Positions 10,247-29,161 of a stretch of 35,367 bases of DNA are shown here, piece by piece. A model generated the notes under the pieces. It saw only the letters and a program-made list of their open reading frames with translations, was not told the DNA's origin and searched no databases. How positions within the stretch are numbered: position 1 is the stretch's first letter; each line of letters opens with the position of its first letter. The stretch is from Pseudomonadota bacterium (lineage in GTDB: Bacteria; Chloroflexota; Ktedonobacteria; Ktedonobacterales; JADMIN01), in the NCBI GenBank assembly GCA_021324535.1, contig JAJPIU010000181.1, forward strand, positions 1 to 35,367. Direction: 5' to 3'. The position numbers and the translations under genes were made by a program.

Positions 10247-11398
10247 TTATGAGAGCGTAAATGGAGGCGGTGGGAGTGAGAGAGTAGCGTCCTGGATTTG
10301 CCGCGCAAGTACGCCAAAGGCTTTTCGTATCGCCTGTGGCGTAAACTCTCGTATGAATACCACTTCCCGACAGATCTGCCTGAGAATATCCAGGTTTGCT
10401 TGCGGCCCACAACCAACACCATAGAATGCCCCTATCTTATTGGCCTGCTCATAGTTGATTTCCAGGGAATATTGACGCCAATCCGCCCCATCGGTTGGAT
10501 CGCCATCAGTTAGAAGGAACACATAGGCTTGCTCAGCACTGTTCGTTTGAGCAAGTTCATCCTTTAACACCTTCAAAGCGCCTCCGAGCGATGTTCCCTC
10601 CTCTCCATGCAAGTTATTGGCGGTAACAATAGGGGGGACAAATGAAGAAAGCGGTGTCAATGGCGCAAAGTCAACTCGATACGAGAATGTAATGATGCCT
10701 ACGCTCACACCTCCGCGATCATGAAGGTTACAAACTAATTCGTTATAGAGTGTTCTAACCCCATTATTGACGGCGGCGATCGGTTCGCCTTTCATTGAAA
10801 CAGATGTATCTAGGAGGAGATACACAGGAACTTTTTTCAGGGCAACCATAGGCGCCATGTTATGATCAGGTGCAGCAGAATCATGTGCACGATTCGTTTG
10901 CGCCGTGTTTTCGAGGGGTTGCAATGTAAGCTCAGGAGATTTTTGTGGGGGTGGTAGAACATCACCTAGTTGAGCAATAGCACGAAGGGTCTCACTTACC
11001 ATTTGATAAAAGGGTAGGGGCGAATTGTCAGGCCCAGCCACGCGCGGGAAAGGTAATAAGAAAGGCCATCCCTGCGTATAATCATGCAATTCGAGCCGCT
11101 CCAAAACAACGGGTATGATGAGGCGAGGAAGAGTAGGATCATAGAGGCGCAGATAATTTGCGACATCAAATTCAGTGAACACATAATTTGAATTCAAAGC
11201 CGCTTTTGACAAGAGAAGTATGAACACTTGTCGCCTCTGCAACTCTGGCGCAATTATTTGAGAGATTGTACTCCCATACGGATTATCATGATCGAAGTAC
11301 CATGCGTCAATCTGAGCCTCTCGAAGCGCAGCCGCAAACCGATCACAAAACGCGCGATCTTTTGTACTATAGCTTATAAAAGCCAACGGCGTGGACAT
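10247..11398 (-). CDS. TIR domain-von Willebrand factor A fusion protein
   Basis: A 383-residue soluble protein. Residues 1-120 form a TIR domain: FISYSTKD at the start, then LLLSKAALNSNYVFTEF, where Glu76 sits at the position of the catalytic Glu of NAD+-cleaving TIR proteins. A linker (about 145-188) leads to a vWA domain resembling TerY: VYLLLDTSVSMKGEPI with MIDAS residues D197, S199 and S201, Thr269 in GTSLGGAL, and D298 in LLTDGDPTD. All metal-site positions are present. The vWA part should bind a protein partner through a metal ion, and TIR domains in bacteria commonly degrade NAD+ or make signalling nucleotides in anti-phage immunity; that role here is inferred. The gene stands alone, is AT-richer than its neighbours and is probably acquired. 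Start ATG 11398 has GAGG upstream. Confidence 0.9.
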   Translation of the reverse strand: MSTPLAFISYSTKDRAFCDRFAAALREAQIDAWYFDHDNPYGSTISQIIAPELQRRQVFILLLSKAALNSNYVFTEFDVANYLRLYDPTLPRLIIPVVLERLELHDYTQGWPFLLPFPRVAGPDNSPLPFYQMVSETLRAIAQLGDVLPPPQKSPELTLQPLENTAQTNRAHDSAAPDHNMAPMVALKKVPVYLLLDTSVSMKGEPIAAVNNGVRTLYNELVCNLHDRGGVSVGIITFSYRVDFAPLTPLSSFVPPIVTANNLHGEEGTSLGGALKVLKDELAQTNSAEQAYVFLLTDGDPTDGADWRQYSLEINYEQANKIGAFYGVGCGPQANLDILRQICREVVFIREFTPQAIRKAFGVLARQIQDATLSLPPPPFTLS

Positions 11399-18066: not shown

Positions 18067-18203
18067 CGCGTGTCTTCTGGGCACATCCCGTGACGTCGCG
18101 CATTCCCAAGCGGACAACGGCGTTCGCCAACAAAAGCTATCGTGAGCTTCTGGCCTCGCCCGCTCTTCCGTATGTTGATGATGAGTATCGGACAATTCGA
18201 CGT

Positions 18204-18273
18204 CAAGCCCGCGAAGGCGGGCTTCGTGGCGAAGTGTAGCGAAGCCCTTAGGCGCGGCTTGAGCCGCCCGCCG
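18204..18273 (-). repeat. REP-like dispersed repeat, copy 3 (inverted)
   Basis: Inverted relative to copies 1 and 2. The hairpin AAGCCCGC-gaag-GCGGGCTT (18205-18224) corresponds to the second hairpin, and GCGCGGCTTGAGCCGC to the first. It lies in the etf leader. Confidence 0.7.
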
Positions 18274-18330
18274 TCCTCGTCCGCTACTCATCCTACGCTA
18301 TCCACAAACCACAACCTGGAGGAAAACCCG

Positions 18331-19110
18331 GTGAAGATCGTCGTCTGCATGAAGGAAACGCCGTCCACAACGGTCGAGAAATCCTTCGGCCCTGATATGC
18401 GCATCGAGCGACGCAAAGAAGACGCTGTGATCAACCCCTTCGATGAATACACCATCGAAGAGGGACTACGGCAGCAAGAGAAACACGCTGGCAGCGAGGT
18501 GATTGCGCTGTGCATGGGGCCAGCCACTGCCACTGATAACATCCGCCGGGCGCTGGCGATGGGCGCTGATCGCGGCGTCCTTGTGACCGATCCCGCGCTG
18601 GCAGGCTCCGACGCGATTGGCACGGCGCGCGTGCTAGCCGCCGCACTCAAGCAGATCGGCTTCGACCTCGCGCTCTTTGGCAGCGCCGCCGCAGACGCCT
18701 ATGGCGGCGTGGTGCCCAGCGCCGTCGCGGAGTTCCTGGGCATGCCACTGCTCTCGTTCGCTGGCAAGCTGGATATTGACGGCTCCACGGCGCGCATCGA
18801 GCGGCAGGCCGAGGTGGGTTATCAGGTAGCCGAGGCGTCCATGCCTGCGCTGGTGAGCGTGGTCAAGTCCATCAACGAGCCGCGCTACCCCTCGATGAAA
18901 GGTATCATGCAGGCCAAGAAGAAGCCGATTGATACGCTGACGCTGGCCAACCTGGGGTTGGACGCCGACACAGTGGGCGCTGCGGGCGCACGCGAAGAGG
19001 CCCTCAGCGCGGAGAAGGTGACGGCGCAGCGCAAGGGCGAGATCTACATGGGCAATGAGGGAGCGGCGGATCGCATCGTGGCCTTCCTCGTGGAACAGAA
19101 GGTGCTCTAA
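18331..19110 (+). CDS. etfB: Electron transfer flavoprotein beta subunit
   Basis: A 259-residue subunit of ETF, the soluble carrier that takes electrons from acyl-CoA and other dehydrogenases. Start GTG 18331 has GGAGG eight bases upstream and gives the family N-terminus [12 protein letters not shown]. Family marks: [34 protein letters not shown] (shortened to its MGADRG core), [26 protein letters not shown]-type segment (the conserved recognition loop) and a C-terminal tail. EtfB binds AMP or, in bifurcating types, a second FAD. It is co-transcribed with etfA two bases downstream. Confidence 0.96.
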
Positions 19111-19112
19111 AT

Positions 19113-20153
19113 ATGGCAAACGATGTATGGGCGTTGGCGGAGATCAGCAATGGCAAGCTGGCGGGCATCTCGCTTCAGCTTGCCAGCAAAGCGGCTGATC
19201 TGGCGAACCAGCTTGGTGGCTCTTCGGCGGCGGTGGCGATGGGAACAAACACCCAGGCCGCCGCGCAGGAGCTTGGCGATTGCGGGGTCAAGACGGTCTA
19301 CGCCTCGGAAGGAACGGTCTACGATGAGTATCTGGTTCAGCCGCATGTCGAGACGTTGGCAGCGCTGATCCAGCAGCATCAGCCGTCGCTCGTGCTCTTC
19401 GGCGCCACGAACTATGGGCGCGATGTGGCGGCTCGCCTTGCCGCGCGTTTGGGTCTGGGCATCGAGTACAACGTCGGCGAGGTCACGCTGGACGGCGGGA
19501 ATGTCGTTATGACGATCACGGCCTTTGGCGGTTCGCAATCGGTCAAGGCGACGTTCAAGGGCGAGGGAACACGCCTGCTTGGCGCGCGCCAGAACGCCTT
19601 CCCCACCGTGCGCGTGGGCGGCTCGGCCAGCGTTGAAAACGTCCCGGCGCCGGCTGCCCCCAAGCAGGGCGCGAAGCTGAGCGGCCCCTTTGGCGCCGAG
19701 GGCGCGACGGCGGCAGGCCACCTGGGCAAGGCGCCCGATGGGCATGATATCTGGCTGCCAGCCGTCACCACCGCCAAGCTTGAGGAGGCGCAGATCATCG
19801 TTTCCGGCGGACGCGGTGTTGGCGGGCCTGCGGGCTTCGAGCAGATCGAGGCGCTGGCTACTGCGCTTGGCGCAAGCATGGGCGCCTCACGCGCCGCCGT
19901 TGACGCCGGATGGATTCCCTACGAGCGGCAGGTGGGCCAGACGGGCAAGACAGTCAAGCCGACGGTGTATATCGCCTGTGGCATCTCCGGCGCAGTGCAA
20001 CACAAAGCAGGCATGGGCACATCGGGCCTGATCATCGCCATCAACAAAGACAAAGAGGCGCCGATCTTCGGCTTCTGCGATCTGGGCGTGGTAGCCGATC
20101 TCAACGTGGTTGTGCCGCAGTTGACGGCGCTGGTCAAGCAGCGCAGAGGGTAG
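19113..20153 (+). CDS. etfA: Electron transfer flavoprotein alpha subunit
   Basis: A 346-residue subunit that carries the FAD of ETF. ATG 19113 follows the etfB stop by two bases. The C-terminal FAD domain is clear: [30 protein letters not shown]-type motif (about 255-275), [14 protein letters not shown] and [22 protein letters not shown]. The ETF passes electrons to the membrane protein encoded just downstream. A hairpin (20169-20192) separates etfA from that gene. Confidence 0.96.
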
Positions 20154-20168
20154 GTTGTCCATAGCAGC

Positions 20169-20192
20169 GGCGGGCGGGTGAACCCGCCCGCC
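20169..20192. repeat. Perfect hairpin between etfA and the oxidoreductase gene
   Basis: GGCGGGCGGG (20169-20178) pairs fully with CCCGCCCGCC (20183-20192) across TGAA. The loop and stem echo the first hairpin of the REP-like family, so this may be a half copy. With no T-run it may act as an attenuator or 3'-end stabiliser that sets etfBA above the downstream gene. Confidence 0.6.
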
Positions 20193-20240
20193 TATCTCGG
20201 CTAGACGTAGCTTATCGGTTGTCTTAAAGGAGCGGTTGCT

Positions 20241-22394
20241 ATGCTTCCACCGTTCATGCCGTCAGGCGGGCTGATCGGCGCGATCATCTTTGGCATTGTC
20301 CTGGTGGTCGCGTGGGTAGCCTTTGGCCTGCGTATTCGCAAGCTGGTGCGGATGTTGCTTGCGGGGCGGCCAGAAAACCGCTTCGACCGCCTGGGCGACC
20401 GCATCAAATATTTCACCCTGATGGTGCTTGGGCAGCGCGGCGTGCTGCGCGATCCGTTGCCTGGGATCGCCCACTTTTTCACGTTCTGGGGCTTTATCAT
20501 CATCCAGATTGACGCGCTCAACCTCTGGGCGATGGGACTGGGCTTCCAGATACCCATTATCAGCAGCAAACCCTTCGCCGCCATTCTGGACTTCTTCATT
20601 TTCATGGCTGCCGTCGCGTTGATCGCCTTTACCTATCGGCGCCTGGTGATGCGACCACGCCAGTTGCAAAGCCAGACCCACGGCATGGCCGACGCCTACA
20701 CTATCCTGATCCTTATCGCGCTGGTACTCGTCACGCTCTTCTTCTTCGAGGTCTTCGCCTATGTCGCCACCGGCGGCGCGGCGTGGTCGGTGTTTGGCGC
20801 GCTGCTCAATCCGGCGTTTGGCGGGATGAACGCCCGCACGGCGCTGGCGCTGGCTGATGTGGCGTGGTGGGGTAACGTGCTGACGGTGCTTGGCTTCCTG
20901 GTCTACCTGCCCAACTCCAAGCACCTTCACCTGATCGCCACGCCGTTCAATGTCTTTTTCCGCAACTATGCCCCGATGGGCGCCCTTCAGATCATCCCCA
21001 ACATCGAAGAGCGCGAAGACTACGGCGTGCACAAAGTCGAGCAGTTTACCTGGAAACAACTGCTGGATGGCTACGCCTGCACGGAGTGTGGCCGTTGCAA
21101 TAGCGTCTGCCCCGCGCTAGCCACCGACAAGCCGCTCTGGCCGAAGGAGATCATCCTGGGCGTGCGCGAAGAGTTGTACTCGCAGGGAAACATCCTCCTG
21201 GTGGGCGCTGGCGCAGCCGAGGAGGCGGCCAAGCATGAGCCGATGGTGGGCGGCCTGATCAAAGAGGAATCGCTCTGGGCCTGCACGAACTGCGGCGCGT
21301 GCGTGGAGATCTGCCCGGTCTCCATCGAGCATGTGCAGAAGATTGATGACATGCGGCGCTATCTGGTTATGGAGGAGAGCAACTTCCCGCAGGAGGTGAC
21401 GCCGCTCTTCAATAATCTGGAGCGTAACCAGAATCCCTGGGAGATCAGCAACGACACGCGGGCGAACTGGGCACGCGGTATGAACATTCCCACGCTTGCC
21501 GAAGACCCCGATGTGGAGGTGCTCTACTGGGTTGGCTGCATGGGATCGTTCGATGCGCGCAACCAGAAGGTGGCGACGGCCTTCGCGAAGGTGATGCAGG
21601 CAGCGGGTGTGCGCTTCGGCATCCTGGGGCCTGAGGAAAGCTGCACCGGCGATCCGGCGCGACGCATCGGCAACGAATACCTCTGGCAGATGCTCGCCCA
21701 GCAAAATATCGAAGTCCTCAACGGCTACGGCTTCGGCAAGGGCGGCGAGGCGAAAACCGAAGCCAACGGGACAAACGGCGCGACCAGCAGCAACGGCGCA
21801 ACCGCCACGGCGCCTTCGGGCGTGGGCGTGGAGCCGGGACGCGCCTATAACGTGAAGACGGTGGTAGCCACCTGCCCGCACTGCTTCAACACGATCAAGA
21901 ATGAGTACCCGCAGCTTGGCGGAAACTTCGAGGTGATTCACCATACGGAGTTCATTGACCGACTGATCTCAACCGGCCAGCTCAAACTCCCCGCCGGCTT
22001 CGACCGCCGCAAGCTGACCTATCACGACCCCTGCTTCATCGGCCGCTGGAACGGTGTCTACGACCAGCCGCGCCGTGTGCTGAACGTGATCAACAGCGAG
22101 GGCGTGACAGAGATGCGCCGCAACCGCAACCGCTCCTTCTGCTGTGGCGGCGGCGGTGGACGCGCCTGGATGGAAGAGAAGATCGGTAAGCGCATCAACA
22201 ATACGCGCGTGCAGGAGGCGATGGACACTGGCGCCGACGCGCTTGCCGCCGCCTGCCCCTTCTGCATCTCGATGTTTGAGGATGGCATCAAAGCCGTCGG
22301 CGCAACCGACAACTTTGGCGTCGAAGACATCTCCGAGATTCTTGCCCGCGCGCTCGAAGCGCAGCCGGTGGCCGCCGCTCAGGCAGAGGCATAG
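20241..22394 (+). CDS. EtfAB:menaquinone oxidoreductase-like membrane Fe-S protein
   Basis: A 717-residue fusion: N-terminal membrane domain (about 1-250, roughly six helices, with histidines such as H78 that could bind heme b), a 2[4Fe-4S] ferredoxin domain (CTECGRC...C near 280 and CTNCGAC...CP near 348) and two CCG domains as in HdrB/GlpC (from about 432, and CCGGGGGRAW near 634 with CPFC near 672). This is the layout of EMO, which moves electrons from reduced ETF to menaquinone. Position directly after etfBA supports that. In the first CCG domain the usual CCG is CTG (SCTGDPARR). A Gly/Thr/Asn-rich loop of about 30 residues is inserted before CPHC. ATG 20241 has AAAGGAG upstream. Confidence 0.9.
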   Translation: MLPPFMPSGGLIGAIIFGIVLVVAWVAFGLRIRKLVRMLLAGRPENRFDRLGDRIKYFTLMVLGQRGVLRDPLPGIAHFFTFWGFIIIQIDALNLWAMGLGFQIPIISSKPFAAILDFFIFMAAVALIAFTYRRLVMRPRQLQSQTHGMADAYTILILIALVLVTLFFFEVFAYVATGGAAWSVFGALLNPAFGGMNARTALALADVAWWGNVLTVLGFLVYLPNSKHLHLIATPFNVFFRNYAPMGALQIIPNIEEREDYGVHKVEQFTWKQLLDGYACTECGRCNSVCPALATDKPLWPKEIILGVREELYSQGNILLVGAGAAEEAAKHEPMVGGLIKEESLWACTNCGACVEICPVSIEHVQKIDDMRRYLVMEESNFPQEVTPLFNNLERNQNPWEISNDTRANWARGMNIPTLAEDPDVEVLYWVGCMGSFDARNQKVATAFAKVMQAAGVRFGILGPEESCTGDPARRIGNEYLWQMLAQQNIEVLNGYGFGKGGEAKTEANGTNGATSSNGATATAPSGVGVEPGRAYNVKTVVATCPHCFNTIKNEYPQLGGNFEVIHHTEFIDRLISTGQLKLPAGFDRRKLTYHDPCFIGRWNGVYDQPRRVLNVINSEGVTEMRRNRNRSFCCGGGGGRAWMEEKIGKRINNTRVQEAMDTGADALAAACPFCISMFEDGIKAVGATDNFGVEDISEILARALEAQPVAAAQAEA

Positions 22395-22410
22395 CGCGAT
22401 CACTATAGGA

Positions 22411-22432
22411 GAAGGGTAGCATGCTACCCTTC
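22411..22432. terminator. Perfect palindrome terminator between convergent genes
   Basis: GAAGGGTAGC followed by ATGCTACCCTTC is a perfect 22-base palindrome lying 16 bases after the oxidoreductase stop and three bases before the opposing stop at 22436. It likely acts in both directions. Confidence 0.7.
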
Positions 22433-22435
22433 TTC

Positions 22436-23035
22436 CTACCTCACAGGAGCATGCTCCGGCGATTTGTCAACCGAACCGACGACTTGCTCCATGATGTAAT
22501 CCACCATATCGTTGATATTGTTCTTATTTCGTGGCGCGGTTCCCGGTTTATGCGCCTGGACAATGCTCACGGCTTCGCGCAGGTCGCGCTGTGTTCCACG
22601 CACAAGCACAGCGCGCAACTGATGCTCGCCATATTCCCACACAAGGGCATACGGATCAAACGTGCGATAGGGATTGTAGTCCTCCGGTTTTCCCGCACGA
22701 ATAGGAACAGGCGCAGGGCCAAGATCAAGCGTTGAACTTCTCCCAGCCGCACGAGGTGTACCACCACTAAGCGATGCGATCTCCTGGTACTTCTCGTTCA
22801 CGGTATTTCGCAAGTCAACATCTGCGGCCAACCGCTCATAAACGGCCTCGAGTACAGCCGTGACTGCTGCTTTCTCACCTTCATCCGGTATCCCAAGAGC
22901 GACGAGAATGCCTTTTGTTGCCAGTTTGTTCCTCTGGGTTGCGGACATTGGCTTGGGTGGCTTGGGTGGTTTAGGCGCCTTTGGAAGCTTGGGTTTAGGC
23001 GCTGTCTGCGCTCTGGGCTTTCGTGTTGCCGCCAT
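22436..23035 (-). CDS. Small Lys/Pro-rich protein, companion of the nuclease-ParA gene
   Basis: I do not recognise this 199-residue protein. The N-terminus (1-30) is a basic Lys/Pro-rich tail (KPPKPPKPP), then a helical part (about 35-85: ATKGILVALGIPDEGEKAAV), then a region with YNPYRTFDPYALVWEYGEHQLRAVL-like content and a C-terminal helix. Start ATG 23035 has GGAGGAGGG upstream. It lies 61 bases after the nuclease-ParA gene on the same strand, so the two probably form an operon. By position it could be the DNA-binding or adaptor partner of the ParA-type ATPase, like ParB or small partition proteins, but no HTH is evident. Base composition is AT-richer than flanking genes. Confidence 0.75.
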   Translation of the reverse strand: MAATRKPRAQTAPKPKLPKAPKPPKPPKPMSATQRNKLATKGILVALGIPDEGEKAAVTAVLEAVYERLAADVDLRNTVNEKYQEIASLSGGTPRAAGRSSTLDLGPAPVPIRAGKPEDYNPYRTFDPYALVWEYGEHQLRAVLVRGTQRDLREAVSIVQAHKPGTAPRNKNNINDMVDYIMEQVVGSVDKSPEHAPVR

Positions 23036-23096
23036 TCTGTTGTTCCCTCCTCCGCGCATGGACAGTGCGCACTTGACTCTTGATACTTCAGACGTA

Positions 23097-24437
23097 TTAT
23101 TTCTGGCTTTGGCGCTTCGACTGAACAAGTTGTGCTACCTCATCCGCTAATGCTGCATATGCGGCAGCCCCTCTTGTCTTGGCTCCAGGCTCCAATGAGT
23201 CCAATTGGTTATCAAATGGAATCCGAGAGGTGAACGGGTATCCACCAAATTCTTGGAGACTGCCTTGAATTGCTCCCGGAAGATCAATCTCCACGAATCG
23301 CTTTGTGAGCTCCAGTGTATCCCAATGGGTGACGGCTGTACCCAAAAATCGCCCTTTTGTGCCAGTCAGAGCATCCATTGTGCGCAATGTCAAGAGCATA
23401 TTCCGCGTGCCAGAAAGAGATGCAGGCCGTGGCCGTACAGGAGCAAGTACGAAGTCAGCGGCTGCTAAACCTGCACGAGTGAAGACAGACATAGCGGGTG
23501 GAGTATCGAGAATAATCCAATCTGGCGTTCCTCCAAGATTCGCTATCATGTTATGCCGCAACGCATGTATATCGTGAATAACTTGCGTCTCAATGTCTGG
23601 GCGACCGGCGCCGCCCACGTCACGTAGTGTCAAGAAAGGATCGGAGGGGATGAGGCTTACCCCTGGAGTTTCCGTTGGGATGATGAGCTCTGCAAGTGGC
23701 TTCTTGCCCGAAAAGTAATGGACGATACTTTGGAGCTGAAAGCCTTGGTTACTCGCTGATCCCAATTGGTGTGGGATACATCGCTCAGTAAGATTACCCT
23801 GTCCGTCAAAGTCGATCAAGAGCACTCGTTTGCCTTGTCGCGCATATTCGACACCAAGGTAGTAGGCTGTCGTCGTTTTGCCTACTCCGCCTTTATTATT
23901 TGCAACCGCAAGGATGGTTGCGCCACCAGTGATACGAGTCGGCGTATTATTTCGTCCCGCAAAAAACTCCGGAGAGAGCGCCGAGATCACAGCATCGTCA
24001 TCATGGCGCGAACCTTGAATATAGGTGATGTATCGAATGAGTTGGGAGCCGTTTATGAGATAAACGCGCTTCCCCTCGGATTCTGCCATATCGTGAGCTG
24101 TGTCTTTGAAGTCGCCAGTCGTAATGACAAACGGTTTGACGCTTGGCTTACTGACGACGCTAGCGCCGCGCACATGCTGAACTACAGAAGCCGCTACCAA
24201 ATTGTCGTGGGCGTACCGCTTGCATTCAACCCCACCAAAGGTGCGCGTGCTTCCTGGCGCCCTGAACTCGAGATCAACTCCCCTAAGCCAATGCGGCCCA
24301 ACTTCCTTCACATCATAACCTGCTCGCCTGAGTACATAGGCAACAAATTTCTCAAAGGCCTGTGATGAGAGTGAATGCATTGCCTCAACCGTTGGGTGAT
24401 TGAAGAGTTCCGCAAATCTTGCTGGCTCTGCTGACAT
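23097..24437 (-). CDS. Mrr-like restriction nuclease domain fused to ParA-family ATPase
   Basis: A 446-residue fusion. Residues about 22-138 match the Mrr_cat nuclease fold: AFEKFVAYVLRRAGYDV (E29), GVDLEF (D55), VECKRY (E71, K73, the D...ExK core) and VITTGDF, a conserved Mrr-type segment. From about 174 a ParA/MinD-type ATPase follows: NNKGGVGKTTT with signature Lys182 and P-loop Lys187, LLIDFDGQGN (D209, D211) and WIILDTPPA. Both active sites look intact. Mrr domains cut DNA, often modified or foreign; ParA ATPases dimerise on DNA with ATP. A joint role in defence or in plasmid/island maintenance is inferred. Start ATG 24437, with an AAGGGTAGG site. No integrase or methylase is near. Confidence 0.9.
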   Translation of the reverse strand: MSAEPARFAELFNHPTVEAMHSLSSQAFEKFVAYVLRRAGYDVKEVGPHWLRGVDLEFRAPGSTRTFGGVECKRYAHDNLVAASVVQHVRGASVVSKPSVKPFVITTGDFKDTAHDMAESEGKRVYLINGSQLIRYITYIQGSRHDDDAVISALSPEFFAGRNNTPTRITGGATILAVANNKGGVGKTTTAYYLGVEYARQGKRVLLIDFDGQGNLTERCIPHQLGSASNQGFQLQSIVHYFSGKKPLAELIIPTETPGVSLIPSDPFLTLRDVGGAGRPDIETQVIHDIHALRHNMIANLGGTPDWIILDTPPAMSVFTRAGLAAADFVLAPVRPRPASLSGTRNMLLTLRTMDALTGTKGRFLGTAVTHWDTLELTKRFVEIDLPGAIQGSLQEFGGYPFTSRIPFDNQLDSLEPGAKTRGAAAYAALADEVAQLVQSKRQSQK

Positions 24438-24759
24438 AACCTACCCTTTCTTTGCTCAGTCGCATACTGTTATCTCGTCCACTCACTGGTGAATAGGAGC
24501 AGTATAGCATGACTCTCACCTCTCTACAATATGGTTCTGCTGAATGCTTGCGGCTCAAGAGACAGTATTTTGGCCGAGCACATTGAAGATGTGATTGGTT
24601 AAGGAGGAGCAGGCATTTTCACCATGCACATGTGGTACACTGGAGCATCAGTTCACGAGAAAGGCAGGCGCTGCAATTGCCGCAGGGCTTGTAGACTTCT
24701 ATAAACACAACCTCTGGGCGTGTGGGCCTACGACGAGACAATGAGAGGATAGCGCCACC
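24438..24759. other. Gap upstream of the nuclease-ParA gene
   Basis: It holds the minus-strand promoter at 24501-24529 and the leader of the zinc-ribbon remnant. A 26-codon frame from 24623 is Cys/Arg-rich but has a badly spaced ribosome site. Nothing else was recognised. Confidence 0.4.
24501..24529 (-). promoter_or_regulatory. Promoter of the nuclease-ParA operon
   Basis: On the minus strand TTGTAG (24529-24524), a 17-base spacer and TGC-TATACT (24509-24501) form a good extended -10 promoter about 65 bases before the ATG at 24437. Confidence 0.55.
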
Positions 24760-25117
24760 GTGTTTAACGTATGTCCCCAGTGCGGGGAATACTCCGTTGA
24801 GAAAACTATCGATCCTGCTGGCCCGTATGCTGTCTGTCCCTTCTGCGGCCATCCACATCCCTTTCTTCAGCAGCCGTTTTTTTTCGACCTTGTACTATTT
24901 GGCGCTGGTCTGTGATGATACCCTGATCCAAGAGCGTTTGCAGCTTCGACCTTCATGGCGGGAATCCGGTTCAAGCGATGTCATTAAGCGCATGATTCGC
25001 TTCAATCGCTTGCTGAAAGAGCATGCGGCAACGATGCAGCCGCCAATGGCGCTGTATGACACGAGCAACCAATCAATACGTGAGACGGCCGAAGCGGTTG
25101 CCCCAATGGATACGTGA
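24760..25117 (+). pseudogene. Remnant of a zinc-ribbon ATPase/kinase gene
   Basis: Starting at GTG 24760 (AGAGGA upstream) one frame reads 51 residues with a four-Cys zinc ribbon (VCPQCGEYS...AVCPFCGHPHPF) and stops at 24913. A second frame, from about 24884 to 25117, continues as LALVCDDTLIQERLQLRPSW ... PPMALYDTSNQSIRETAE, which reads like the C-terminus of a P-loop nucleoside-kinase-like ATPase, with the LYDT segment near the end. From memory, a family joins just such a ribbon to such an ATPase; here the roughly 100-residue core with the P-loop is absent and the frames do not match, so I take it as an internal deletion plus frameshift. Alternatively the 51-residue ribbon could be a small expressed protein. 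Confidence 0.55.
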
Positions 25118-25123
25118 CCGACT

Positions 25124-28100
25124 CTAGTTCGCGCAGGTGTTTGATGGGCCGCAATAGACCGATTTGCCGCCGACCACCAGCAATACGGTGGTCGTCGCGA
25201 CGGGGGCTGACGCCGAGGCGTTCAGGTTAGGCGTCAGCTTCAAGATGGCGAGCGATTTCTGTGTTTGATCGCCGTTCAGGCTGAAGCTGATCAACCCACT
25301 TATCCCCTGAAACCCTTGCTGTTTATTGTTTCCGAGTAGGCTCGAACGTACCTGCGTCAGTGTGGGATAGATTATGGCTGTGGTTTGCCCTGGGGATGGG
25401 CTTGACTGTTTTCCTGGTGTCCCCGTCTGCCCATTGATGGGCGTCGCCTCAGCCAGCAACGTCACGGCGTCATACGCCAGGACACTCCCTGGATCGGGAT
25501 TGAGCAGCCCGCTGGGAATGCCGCTTTGCCCAAACACGCTGAGATAGTTTTGGTCGTAAAGCACCTGGTTTTGGTTTGGGTCGCCAACCGCGGCTGGCTC
25601 GAAGGCGTCGGCAAGCGCGGTGACATAGAGATCACCAAAGATGGAGGGATTCTGGCGCGCCACCTGCGCCAGCGGATCGGTTCCCTCTCCAAAGAGCGCG
25701 GGAGTATCGGCCTCAGCCCCTGCCAGCATGTGGTATGATACGCCAAGATGGTAGGCCGCTTGTGCTATGCCAACCGTATCTTGATCCGTCCCAGCGATGA
25801 ACAACAAGCTGGCGTTTTGTTTCTGCGCGACCTGCGCGGCTGCGGAGTAGCTGGCGTTATTTCCCTGCGTGACGCTCACATGGGCGACGATCCTGGCGCC
25901 GGTCTGTTGGTTGGCGCTTACTTCTTTGGCGAACCCCTGCGCCAGGGCAACGCTCACTGGGTCTTGTTCGTCAACCGCCAGCGCGATCTGGGTGTAGCCA
26001 AGCTGCTGTGATTGGATAACGGCGTCGGCAAGCTCACTGCCCTGTGTGACGACCGAAGGAACAATGGCAAAGTAGTTTCCTCCCATGGCGCCGCCAGTGG
26101 GAGTAGGCGTTGTGGTTGCGCTGGACGTTGACATTGCCAGCTCATCGAGGCCAACCGCTGTACCAATGACCGGTAAACCAATGCTTTGCATCGCCGTCAC
26201 CGCCGCCTGCGCCTGAGCAATTTCCGGCCAACTGATCAGCCCGACGATATGTTGGGGGTTGCCATTGTTAATCTGTGCGGCTAGTAATCTGGCGACAGCG
26301 GAGACACCGCTCGCATCCGGGCCGGAGTTGACGATCAGGATACGCGCCTGAACGCCATCCGGCAGCAGCTGGGAATTATTGATGATTTCTTGCGCCAGAT
26401 AGGCGCCCTGCAATTGGTCGCGCGCATCCACATCGAGGTCGGTTGGCCCGCTCGTACTGTTACCGCTGAAGGCGACGCCGACCGCGAACGTCACATAGGG
26501 CGCATGGTGGAGCACAATCGCAAGGTCGGCGACGTAGATCGCCGCCTCGGCGTCGCTAATATCCATCGAGACTGCCTGATGATAGTCATTCAGGGCCGTT
26601 TGTTGGTCGCCAACCGCCAAAGCGCGCACGGCCTCTTCTTTTAGGTTTGCGTCAGGCTGTTGTTTGTCGAAGACGAACTCGCCCGCGCTGATCCCGATTC
26701 CCTGTTGCTGGTAGAGCACAACACCTGGATTGGGCGTTGGCCCGGTGTTCGCCGGTGGGGCCATGTGGTTTGCCCCGCGCTGCGAATAGGCGACAAGACC
26801 CGCGCCTACCAACGCGATTAGCACGAAGATGACAGCTACCAGAAAAAACGGATTTTGCGAGAGGGCGCCTGCCCGTCGCCCTCTCTGTGCGCCTGAGGCG
26901 CTCTCACCCAGACGCGCCGCCACAGCCTCATCGAGATCAGGCAATACTCCCGTCAGGCCCGTGCCCAAGCGTGGGTCTGAGGCGCGTCCGGGGGTGCGTG
27001 TCATCAACGACGCCAGCGCCCGCCGCATTTCATCGAGCGTGAGGAAACGCTGCGAGGCGGATGGGCGTGTGGCGCGATTGACGATCTCCTCAAACTCTAG
27101 CGAGAGCGTGGGATTGACCCGCCGCATCATCTGCGTGGAGCCTGCGTCAGACTGCCGCCAGGGGGGAATCCCGGTCGCCATGTGACGCATCATCATCCCT
27201 AGCGCATACATATCTGAGCGTGAAGTCACCTGGCCGCGTGCCTGTTCGGGCGCAGCGTATCCCGGAACGCCGCTTGGCCCCATCACAGCATTGGTAGCGC
27301 CATCGGCGGTCGCCAACACGTTTGGAGAGATTCCAACCAGTGTGACGCTGCCATTGGGGCGAAGAATGACGTGCATGGGGCTGAGCGCGCCGTGCGGCAG
27401 TGGCGGGCGGCCCTCGGCAAGGCCGAGTAGCGCCTCGATGATGCGCAGAGTATACTCAACGACCGTACGTTCCGCCAGCGGGCCGCGCGCCCGCTGGATA
27501 CGGTCATTGAGAAGATCGCCGGTTGGCTCCTCAAATACCAGAAAATGGCGCCCGTTCTCGGTGAAGCTATCAATGACCTGTGCCGCCACCCCAGGAGGGA
27601 TGGCGCGGAGACGCCCGGCGATCAAAATGCGGCGGCGCTCGATAGCCTCGGCGTTGTTCATCGGCGAAGCGGCATAGCCTTCCTGTCCGTGCAGGGGAAG
27701 TTCCTGAATGAGTACGCTGGCGCTGGGTGTGTCGCTATCACTGGCGATCATCAAGGGCCAGGCGCTCTCCGGCCCGTTCATCGGCGTCCCACCAGGGGTG
27801 GCGTCGAAGCGCCGCAGCAGGCGGTAGCGTCCTCCTCTGAGGATGGCGCTCGGTTGAAGGGTGGGCGCATGCGCAGCGGGCGTATTTGTCAAAGGAGGAT
27901 ACTTAGGCATGGGGGGTATCCTCTGGGGAGCTCTCGGTGGAATGGGCGCGGCGCCTGGCTGAGGAGCCGATGGCGGCGCGAAGAGCGCATCGGACGGAAA
28001 ACGCTGTGGCGTTCGAGGAGGCATGCCCGCGCCGCTTTCCCCTGATGCGCCTGGGCGTCCGTTGGGTAGATTGGGGTTATTGAGTGCATTAAGAGAAATA

Positions 28101-28921
28101 GCGCCCATCCATTCACCCTGTTGGGAGTCAGGGATGCGCCCTGACTGCCCCAGCGGCTCGGTGGGCTGGCGAGGTCGCTCAGGGATCAGGCGCGGTGGGA
28201 AAGCTCGCCCTTGCTGCGCGTTTCCGTTGGACGTATCGGGCATACTGGGCATATTGGGCGCGCCAGGCATGTTGGGCGCGTTGGGAGCCAGTCCCGGTCT
28301 GATGGGGACACCGTAGCCTGGCGTCTGGCCGATATCGGGCTGGTAGCCGGATTGAAGCGGTGGTTGCGGTTGCGGGCCTGGGTACGGCGCGTGCGGCGCG
28401 TCGGCGCCGGGCAGCCGCCCATGCGCGTGCAACGCCTGGGCCAGCCAGGGCGGCGGATTGTCATCCGGCGAGAAGGCGGGAGCGCCTGGCGCCCCAGGTT
28501 GCGCCGACGGAGATGGCTCATCAGATGGGCGCGCCTGCGGCGACTGAAGTGGTTGGGGGAATGCAGGCGATGCAGGGGATGCGGATGATGGCCGCGATGG
28601 CGGCGTCGCGGTTTGCGTAGGCGCTTGTGGCGGCGGCAGGGCAGGCTGCGCGTCGGGCTGGCGCTCTTCTGGCGGTTCAGCCGGTTGATCCATGACCGCC
28701 AGCCGGGCAGGGTCTGGCGCGCCGGGTTCTTCGCGCCAGGTCGCCTCCACAGGCTCGGCGCTGCTTCCCAGTGGGGAGGAGTAGGGCGCACGGTGTGGCG
28801 CCGGATGGCCTGCGTTTCCTGTAGGCGCCTGCATGCCGTCGGGCTGGATGAGCGCTTGCCCACATCGCAGGCACGTTTCTTGTCCCTGTTCATTGATCTG
28901 CCCACATCGCGGACACTTCAT
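25124..28921 (-). CDS. Zinc ribbon-pseudokinase-transmembrane periplasmic-binding receptor
   Basis: A 1265-residue single-pass receptor. In order: zinc ribbon (C3, C6, C17, C20), a very long Pro/Gln/Ala-rich linker (about 25-355), a protein kinase-like domain (about 360-660), one membrane helix (about 687-712, NPFFLVAVIFVLIALVGAGL), then an extracytoplasmic domain of the type 1 periplasmic-binding (Leu/Ile/Val-receptor) fold (about 800-1260: YVTFAVGVAF, GAYLAQEIIN, VGLISWPEIAQAQ, LLFIAGTDQD). The kinase lacks its catalytic residues: HGALSP replaces HRDLKP, LVGIS replaces DFG, and the VAIK Lys appears lost (VLIQEL); APEQARG is kept. So it is likely a pseudokinase that binds rather than phosphorylates. 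Start ATG 28921 with AGGGGG upstream. Confidence 0.9.
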   Translation of the reverse strand: MKCPRCGQINEQGQETCLRCGQALIQPDGMQAPTGNAGHPAPHRAPYSSPLGSSAEPVEATWREEPGAPDPARLAVMDQPAEPPEERQPDAQPALPPPQAPTQTATPPSRPSSASPASPAFPQPLQSPQARPSDEPSPSAQPGAPGAPAFSPDDNPPPWLAQALHAHGRLPGADAPHAPYPGPQPQPPLQSGYQPDIGQTPGYGVPIRPGLAPNAPNMPGAPNMPSMPDTSNGNAQQGRAFPPRLIPERPRQPTEPLGQSGRIPDSQQGEWMGAISLNALNNPNLPNGRPGASGESGAGMPPRTPQRFPSDALFAPPSAPQPGAAPIPPRAPQRIPPMPKYPPLTNTPAAHAPTLQPSAILRGGRYRLLRRFDATPGGTPMNGPESAWPLMIASDSDTPSASVLIQELPLHGQEGYAASPMNNAEAIERRRILIAGRLRAIPPGVAAQVIDSFTENGRHFLVFEEPTGDLLNDRIQRARGPLAERTVVEYTLRIIEALLGLAEGRPPLPHGALSPMHVILRPNGSVTLVGISPNVLATADGATNAVMGPSGVPGYAAPEQARGQVTSRSDMYALGMMMRHMATGIPPWRQSDAGSTQMMRRVNPTLSLEFEEIVNRATRPSASQRFLTLDEMRRALASLMTRTPGRASDPRLGTGLTGVLPDLDEAVAARLGESASGAQRGRRAGALSQNPFFLVAVIFVLIALVGAGLVAYSQRGANHMAPPANTGPTPNPGVVLYQQQGIGISAGEFVFDKQQPDANLKEEAVRALAVGDQQTALNDYHQAVSMDISDAEAAIYVADLAIVLHHAPYVTFAVGVAFSGNSTSGPTDLDVDARDQLQGAYLAQEIINNSQLLPDGVQARILIVNSGPDASGVSAVARLLAAQINNGNPQHIVGLISWPEIAQAQAAVTAMQSIGLPVIGTAVGLDELAMSTSSATTTPTPTGGAMGGNYFAIVPSVVTQGSELADAVIQSQQLGYTQIALAVDEQDPVSVALAQGFAKEVSANQQTGARIVAHVSVTQGNNASYSAAAQVAQKQNASLLFIAGTDQDTVGIAQAAYHLGVSYHMLAGAEADTPALFGEGTDPLAQVARQNPSIFGDLYVTALADAFEPAAVGDPNQNQVLYDQNYLSVFGQSGIPSGLLNPDPGSVLAYDAVTLLAEATPINGQTGTPGKQSSPSPGQTTAIIYPTLTQVRSSLLGNNKQQGFQGISGLISFSLNGDQTQKSLAILKLTPNLNASASAPVATTTVLLVVGGKSVYCGPSNTCAN

Positions 28922-29161
28922 CTTTGGCCCCCTACTGCCGCCTACCATACTGGCGTTATTCCTGCGTGCGCTACCCCCATTGTACGCGCATGCGCTATAG
29001 TTCTCAACGTACATCTCCATCGTTCTGTCTTCGGTGAAGATACGATCTTTTGCGCCCCTGTGCTCTCATACCAGCGTATATGGCTATATCTTCGTCGTCA
29101 GCCATTGGCGCCAGGGCAAGAGCTGTAATGGCGCACCCTTTTTCTCGGAGTATTTTCTTCT

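Follow-up and report, generated by a model that had tools for sequence, protein, structure and literature searches.

We found that the 35,367-nucleotide stretch of DNA analysed here (the window) encodes a two-gene module in which an Mrr-like nuclease domain is fused to a ParA ATPase and is followed by a small basic companion, probably a ParA partner. The module is not a plasmid par locus and corresponds to no named defence system in the libraries searched. Mrr-NTPase fusions (of McrB type) and ParA-partner pairs are known separately, but an Mrr-ParA fusion with this partner is absent from the libraries and papers searched. The two-gene arrangement represents more than chance, because it recurs in other genomes at about 35% identity. 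We tentatively favour the view that it is an accessory, horizontally exchanged module of biological conflict, directed most likely against foreign DNA. The features of the locus are listed in Table 1.

Table 1. Features of the module and its surroundings; positions refer to the window unless a locus is named
Feature	Position	Strand	Basis
Mrr-like nuclease domain–ParA ATPase fusion, 446 aa	23097..24437	-	ORF, Pfam, homologues in 10 genomes, AlphaFold model
Mrr_cat domain, residues 21-136	24030..24377	-	Pfam PF04471, E 3.1e-16
Catalytic codons E29, D55, E71, K73	24351-24353, 24273-24275, 24225-24227, 24219-24221	-	Alignment of family members
ParA ATPase domain, residues 174-439	23121..23918	-	AAA_31, conserved columns, Soj structures
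Deviant Walker A NNKGGVGKTTT: K182, K187	23892-23894, 23877-23879	-	Alignment of family members
Walker A' D209/D211; Walker B D311			Conserved columns in family alignment
R321 codon, family-specific Arg after Walker B	23475..23477	-	Motif comparison; invariant in family alignment
Companion, 199 aa, pI 9.7, probable ParA partner	22436..23035	-	ORF, homologues beside stand-alone ParAs
Ribosome-binding site of companion, GGAGGAGGG	23045..23053	-	Sequence
Companion helices, residues 32-89; C-terminal four-helix domain, residues 128-189			Predicted structure
Perfect 24-bp palindrome AGAAGGGTAGCATGCTACCCTTCT, probable shared terminator hairpin	22410..22433	.	Between converging genes
Left flank: ETF beta, ETF alpha, Fe-S oxidoreductase	18142..22394	+	Order kept in most relatives examined
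TIR-FGE-sulfatase genes	L050:4748-5944 and L052:1924-3198		Directly upstream of lost-site fusions

The fusion protein

A Pfam search recognised both Mrr_cat (60 bits, against a cut-off of 21) and a ParA-type ATPase (AAA_31, residues 174-354, 108.5 bits, E 4.7e-31) in a single protein, in agreement with the initial annotation, which had proposed the fusion from the sequence and expected Mrr_cat within residues 22-138. The residues that it had named (E29, D55, E71, K73, K182 and K187) all align at the claimed positions, and the first four form the PD-(E/Q)xK site of Mrr_cat. The KGGxxK[TS], Walker A' and Walker B motifs are all present and are invariant or nearly so across the family. Pfam returned nuclease-type and P-loop ATPase families only, and no reader domain for modified DNA (winged helix, SRA, RAMA or EVE) was found in the fusion. 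The AlphaFold model has a pLDDT of 86, and its ParA half resembles Soj/ParA structures with an E-value of about 1e-16 and a TM-score of about 0.8 of the target, the best Foldseek structures being 8ray, 2bek and 6iub.

The companion protein

The 199-residue companion annotated on the same strand was confirmed, and its start is supported because the ribosome-binding site precedes the ATG. Its first 40 residues contain 11 K/R and no D/E, a bias that is less extreme in other members. In the AlphaFold model (mean pLDDT 85), the N-terminus is disordered and precedes a segment of three helices and a C-terminal domain of four. The companion had no match in Pfam, NCBIfam or PADLOC, and a Foldseek search of the PDB with its model gave nothing with E < 1 (best E 2). 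The guess from the sequence that it may have a known DNA-binding fold (SAP, Rho-N or helix-extended-loop-helix) gained no support from Pfam in any of 29 members, nor from Foldseek at E < 1.

As to whether the companion is always present, it lies directly downstream of 12 of the 13 near-full-length fusions, mostly overlapping the fusion stop codon, and is missing only at L049. The diverged fusion L128 is followed by an ORF whose C-terminal end appears similar by eye. The companion profile also detected genes adjoining unfused ParAs in the same two families, with E-values of 1e-4 to 1e-7. These partners and the companion have a common C-terminal domain, which begins with D-P-(Y/F) and contains a G and conserved leucines. 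Because the diverged homologues adjoin two conserved types of stand-alone ParA in the same genomes, the sequence comparison indicates that the companion is probably a ParA partner. ParA partners act via a positively charged, disordered N-terminus (PMC10241942). Of the 47 genomes of the class, 46 also have a canonical ParB, and the companion is therefore no replacement for it.

Stand-alone ParA pairs and phylogeny of the ATPase

Type I stand-alone ParAs (about 264 aa) occur with a partner at L119, L120, L121, L135 and L136, and type II ParAs (about 287 aa) at L122-L127 and L129-L132. In the window's genome, the type I pair lies upstream of rnpA-yidD-yidC-jag (G000:C229); at each of the three type II loci examined, the pair adjoins a DUF6884 gene. 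The idea that type I ParA had replaced parAB close to the origin was rejected, as the canonical ParA-ParB of the host is encoded elsewhere in the genome (G000:C148), on a contig separate from the module.

A maximum-likelihood tree of 59 ParA domains unites 15 fusions in a single clade (support 100/99). This clade groups with type I ParA (98/96), and the type II and canonical ParAs fall on the opposite side. The tree places the fusion ATPase as a fast-evolving sister of type I ParA and not of the canonical ParA beside ParB; terminal branches measure 0.26-1.6 substitutions per column in the fusions versus 0.04-0.4 in type I. Fusions of families f1 and f3 are intermixed in the clade, and the window's copy groups with three f3 genomes. 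The placement of L128 within the same larger group is unsure because of its very long branch. After Walker B, every fused ParA whose motif was read, L128 included, has an arginine (R321 in the window's protein), mostly within T-R-x-A, whereas none of the unfused ParAs read for this motif has it and they carry T-(L/V/I/Q)-N. R321 possibly contacts the nuclease domain or the dimer partner.

Distribution and accessory behaviour

At a threshold of E <= 1e-60, the fusion was found in 10 of the 47 genomes that represent the class. All ten belong to two families, f1 (5 of 11 genomes) and f3 (5 of 6); the 29 members of f2 gave no match, and neither did f4. The fusion-companion pair is present in up to three copies per genome. 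In a 301-genome sample of the phylum, the matches listed added only unfused ParAs, except for one very diverged f3 fusion (L128, in G017:C88). One pattern scan of 84,980 named species, of a type that detects close relatives only, gave only ParA-level (unfused) matches. No full-length fusion was found in the plasmid, phage and IMG/VR collections, and a phage or viral origin was rejected, with no such fusion among viral contigs or phage records. Literature searches for an Mrr-ParA system returned nothing relevant.

The initial annotation had placed the pair in an AT-richer accessory stretch, and both the composition and the accessory character are supported. The module has 52.6% GC, compared with 61.4% in the remaining window. 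Fusion operons were 8-19 points poorer in GC than their flanks at 12 of 14 loci, the exceptions being L045, whose contig is AT-rich throughout, and L049; in five stand-alone ParA pairs, GC equals that of the flanks. The fusion copies occupy unrelated genomic sites. At the site corresponding to that in the window, beside the ETF/Fe-S flank, the fusion was absent in all 12 relatives compared, in one of which (L258) the Fe-S gene alone was found. Two copies have decayed, L051 by an internal deletion with a broken companion and L054 by truncation of the fusion. A second companion gene in the window's own genome, at L058 (G000:C59, 3627-4148), lies behind a short remnant of a ParA C-terminus and is a decayed copy of the module. 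Taken together, the GC-poor operons, the absence beside the flank in relatives and the decayed copies are characteristic of an accessory gene that is exchanged. No plasmid replication or transfer genes were seen beside the fusion copies.

Genomic context

The neighbours of the fusions are mainly housekeeping genes (H+-pyrophosphatase, AIR carboxylase, DUF2298, Na+/H+ exchanger and oxidoreductases), with transposase genes near L041 and L051. Among the neighbours examined, no known defence gene flanks most copies, and no MoxR gene was seen. The fusions at L050 (G019) and L052 (G015) are each immediately preceded on their own strand by a TIR-FGE-sulfatase gene, separated from them by about 43 and 128 bases, respectively. 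At L052 the TIR match is weak, as its 19 bits fall short of the cut-off of 28. The two fusions share only 34% identity, and both have lost the nuclease site. Binding of invader molecules has been proposed for FGS (formylglycine-generating-enzyme-like) domains (PMC8195603). Together with Mrr-like and MinD/ParA-like domains, they appear among the effectors listed for conflict systems that occur in Chloroflexi as well (PMC7159879).

The perfect palindrome described at the end of the pair is indeed found just past the two genes. It occurs once in the genome, even at up to 3 mismatches, and is therefore more plausibly a terminator hairpin, probably one common to the converging genes, than a binding site that recurs. 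The promoter attributed to the pair was not recovered: a scan for sigma-70-type sites on the minus strand upstream of the gene found none, and the regional counts equalled those of shuffled sequence.

To the right of the module, the window encodes a 1298-aa protein with kinase and ANF-receptor domains (25124-29020, minus strand), the gene of which does not adjoin the Fe-S gene in the relatives examined. A TIR-vWA protein (10247-11398, minus strand; TIR_2 2e-15, VWA_2 2e-8) is encoded in a second GC-poor dip (47% GC) about 11.7 kb from the module, and is a probable further conflict gene within the window. Elsewhere in the same genome, a separate 240-aa Mrr_cat protein without ParA is encoded at L059:2276-2998 (G000:C38; Pfam 5e-11).

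Comparison with known systems

The fusion shares the ATPase fold and all motifs with Soj/ParA of ParABS, but it has an N-terminal nuclease domain and belongs to a different ParA clade. Its companion is unrelated to ParB by profile, and no parS-like site was found. No ParB adjoins the module: the companion has no NCBIfam or Pfam match, and the ParB of the genome is on another contig. Nor is there a centromere of iterons or repeated palindromes, as positions 22300-25200 contain no direct repeats and the palindrome is single-copy. A plasmid partition locus was thus rejected, with no ParB, iterons, repeated palindromes or plasmid homologues found; the fusions do not sit in plasmid par loci, a placement that would have spoken against the initial annotation. 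Its suggestion of an island-maintenance module has no direct support, as neither centromere-like repeats nor ParB nor recognised island genes were found next door. McdA-McdB, PpfA-TlpT and similar orphan positioning systems likewise combine a ParA with a partner whose disordered N-terminus is positively charged (PMC10241942; PMC9178275). However, the companion described here resembles no library family or PDB entry, the ATPase bears a nuclease, and there is no cargo operon.

Among nuclease systems, Mrr-type and Mrr_cat-NTPase type IV enzymes share the Mrr_cat domain, and Mrr_cat-NTPase fusions with winged-helix or RAMA readers provide a precedent (PMC11037411). The module differs in having ParA instead of an McrB-like NTPase, in lacking a modified-base reader and in possessing a companion gene. 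Zorya ZorD, a SWI2/SNF2 helicase with a C-terminal Mrr-like nuclease, likewise couples such a nuclease to an ATPase, but the ATPase is of a different class, the ZorD match in PADLOC is weak and covers the nuclease domain only, and no ZorA/ZorB-type gene occurs among the neighbours examined. The NTP-dependent conflict systems of Kaur et al. 2020 (PMC7159879) contain Mrr-like, MinD/ParA-like and FGS modules, reminiscent of the TIR-FGE genes beside two fusions. Their MinD/ParA domains, however, are predicted to be inactive and are coupled to vWA-MoxR cores, whereas the fusions keep their ATPase motifs intact and no vWA-MoxR core was seen in the neighbours examined; the TIR-vWA gene of the window lies about 11.7 kb away. 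No PADLOC protein model was matched over its full length, and only partial nuclease or P-loop hits were obtained (PADLOC-DB 2.0.0, 2023, which later systems postdate). Within the libraries searched, the initial remark that no named system has this architecture is borne out.

Variation of the nuclease site

In the alignment of 13 family members, ExK is intact in three (the window, L041 and L042), three have QxK (L043, L046 and L048), which is the usual Mrr configuration (PMC12707154), three have ExR (L044, L045 and L047), and the site is lost in the remaining four (L049, L050, L052 and L053). Two incomplete copies lie outside the alignment: L051, with its internal deletion, has ExK, and the truncated L054 has ExR. 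The catalytic lysine is thus replaced in 7 of the 13 members, whereas L049 is the only aligned member in which the Walker motifs are not intact. Therefore, ParA and its partner form the constant part of the family, and the proposed ATP-controlled nuclease cannot be the function of the whole family. Mrr_cat is still recognised in members with a lost site, and the fold core (F28, F31, G40, G130, R135, Y136 and Y139) is retained where the catalytic residues vanish. The window's subclade keeps E29/D55/ExK at about 35-40% identity, a level of divergence that suggests selection for the active site.

Possible functions of the module

The conflict reading draws on several observations: the fusion itself, the conservation of the companion and its kinship with ParA partners, the catalytic residues of the window's protein, the accessory behaviour, and the TIR-FGE linkage. 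In such a mechanism, the ParA half would bind DNA non-specifically as an ATP dimer and carry paired Mrr nuclease domains onto it, and dimerisation would bring two Mrr domains together, so that cutting could be gated by the dimer. In the companion, the basic disordered N-terminus would stimulate hydrolysis of ATP and release, and the helical domain at the C-terminus may read a cue or hold cargo. During normal cycling, the nuclease would stay dispersed or off DNA; foreign DNA on which the ATPase cycle stalls would be cut. Where the nuclease is dead, the ParA-partner switch may instead act on a different effector, which in two cases would be the TIR protein encoded directly upstream.

Genomic context and evolution both suggest a role in defence. 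Several points speak against the conflict reading: about half of the family has a changed or lost nuclease site, the PADLOC hits are partial, the neighbours are mostly housekeeping genes with no known defence gene flanking most copies, and no target-recognising domain is known. In addition, the conserved stand-alone ParA-partner pairs suggest an original role in housekeeping and not in immunity. A narrower and rather doubtful version is that the ParA/partner cycle serves as an immune surveillance switch, in which the ATPase would carry the nuclease over the nucleoid, the partner would set the site of stalling, and a decayed nuclease would be followed by rewiring to another effector such as TIR.

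ParA ATPases are positioning and partition motors, and the module might instead position or partition an accessory element or a cell structure, with the Mrr-like domain used for DNA binding or dimerisation and cutting secondary or absent. The far better conservation of the ATPase motifs than of the nuclease site, the retained Mrr fold core, and the partner homologues that belong to stand-alone ParAs without a nuclease would all fit. We nevertheless consider this somewhat unlikely, as no ParB, repeats or multi-copy palindromes lie near the genes, plasmid replication or transfer genes were not seen beside the copies, and the window's subclade retains E29/D55/ExK.

An addiction (toxin-antidote-like) pair, in which the companion restrains a toxic nuclease fusion, is less probable still. 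Its compact operon of mostly overlapping genes is what such a pair would show; the one full-length fusion that lacks a companion (L049, in G001:C288) retains neither its catalytic residues nor the signature lysine of Walker A, and at G000:C59 a companion has outlasted its deleted fusion. However, the informative cases number only one or two, the gene order is effector-first, and a primary role as antidote is contradicted by the companion homologues that work with ParAs lacking a nuclease. A modification-dependent (type IV-like) restriction enzyme with a ParA-like NTPase is very improbable: the Mrr_cat domain, the precedent of reader-bearing Mrr_cat-NTPase fusions and the QxK site of three members are in its favour, but ParA is a dimerising switch and not a translocating McrB-type ring, Pfam found no winged helix, SRA or RAMA reader in the protein, and ExR and dead variants are common.

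With its homologues, the companion constitutes a family of ParA partners that has no match in the sequence or structure libraries used. If the conflict reading holds, the module would illustrate how cell-biology machinery can become a conflict system: a ParA-partner pair specific to this lineage would have been duplicated, would have gained a nuclease and would then have spread as an AT-rich accessory gene. The stand-alone sister pairs in the same genomes provide a natural comparison by which the switch idea can be tested.
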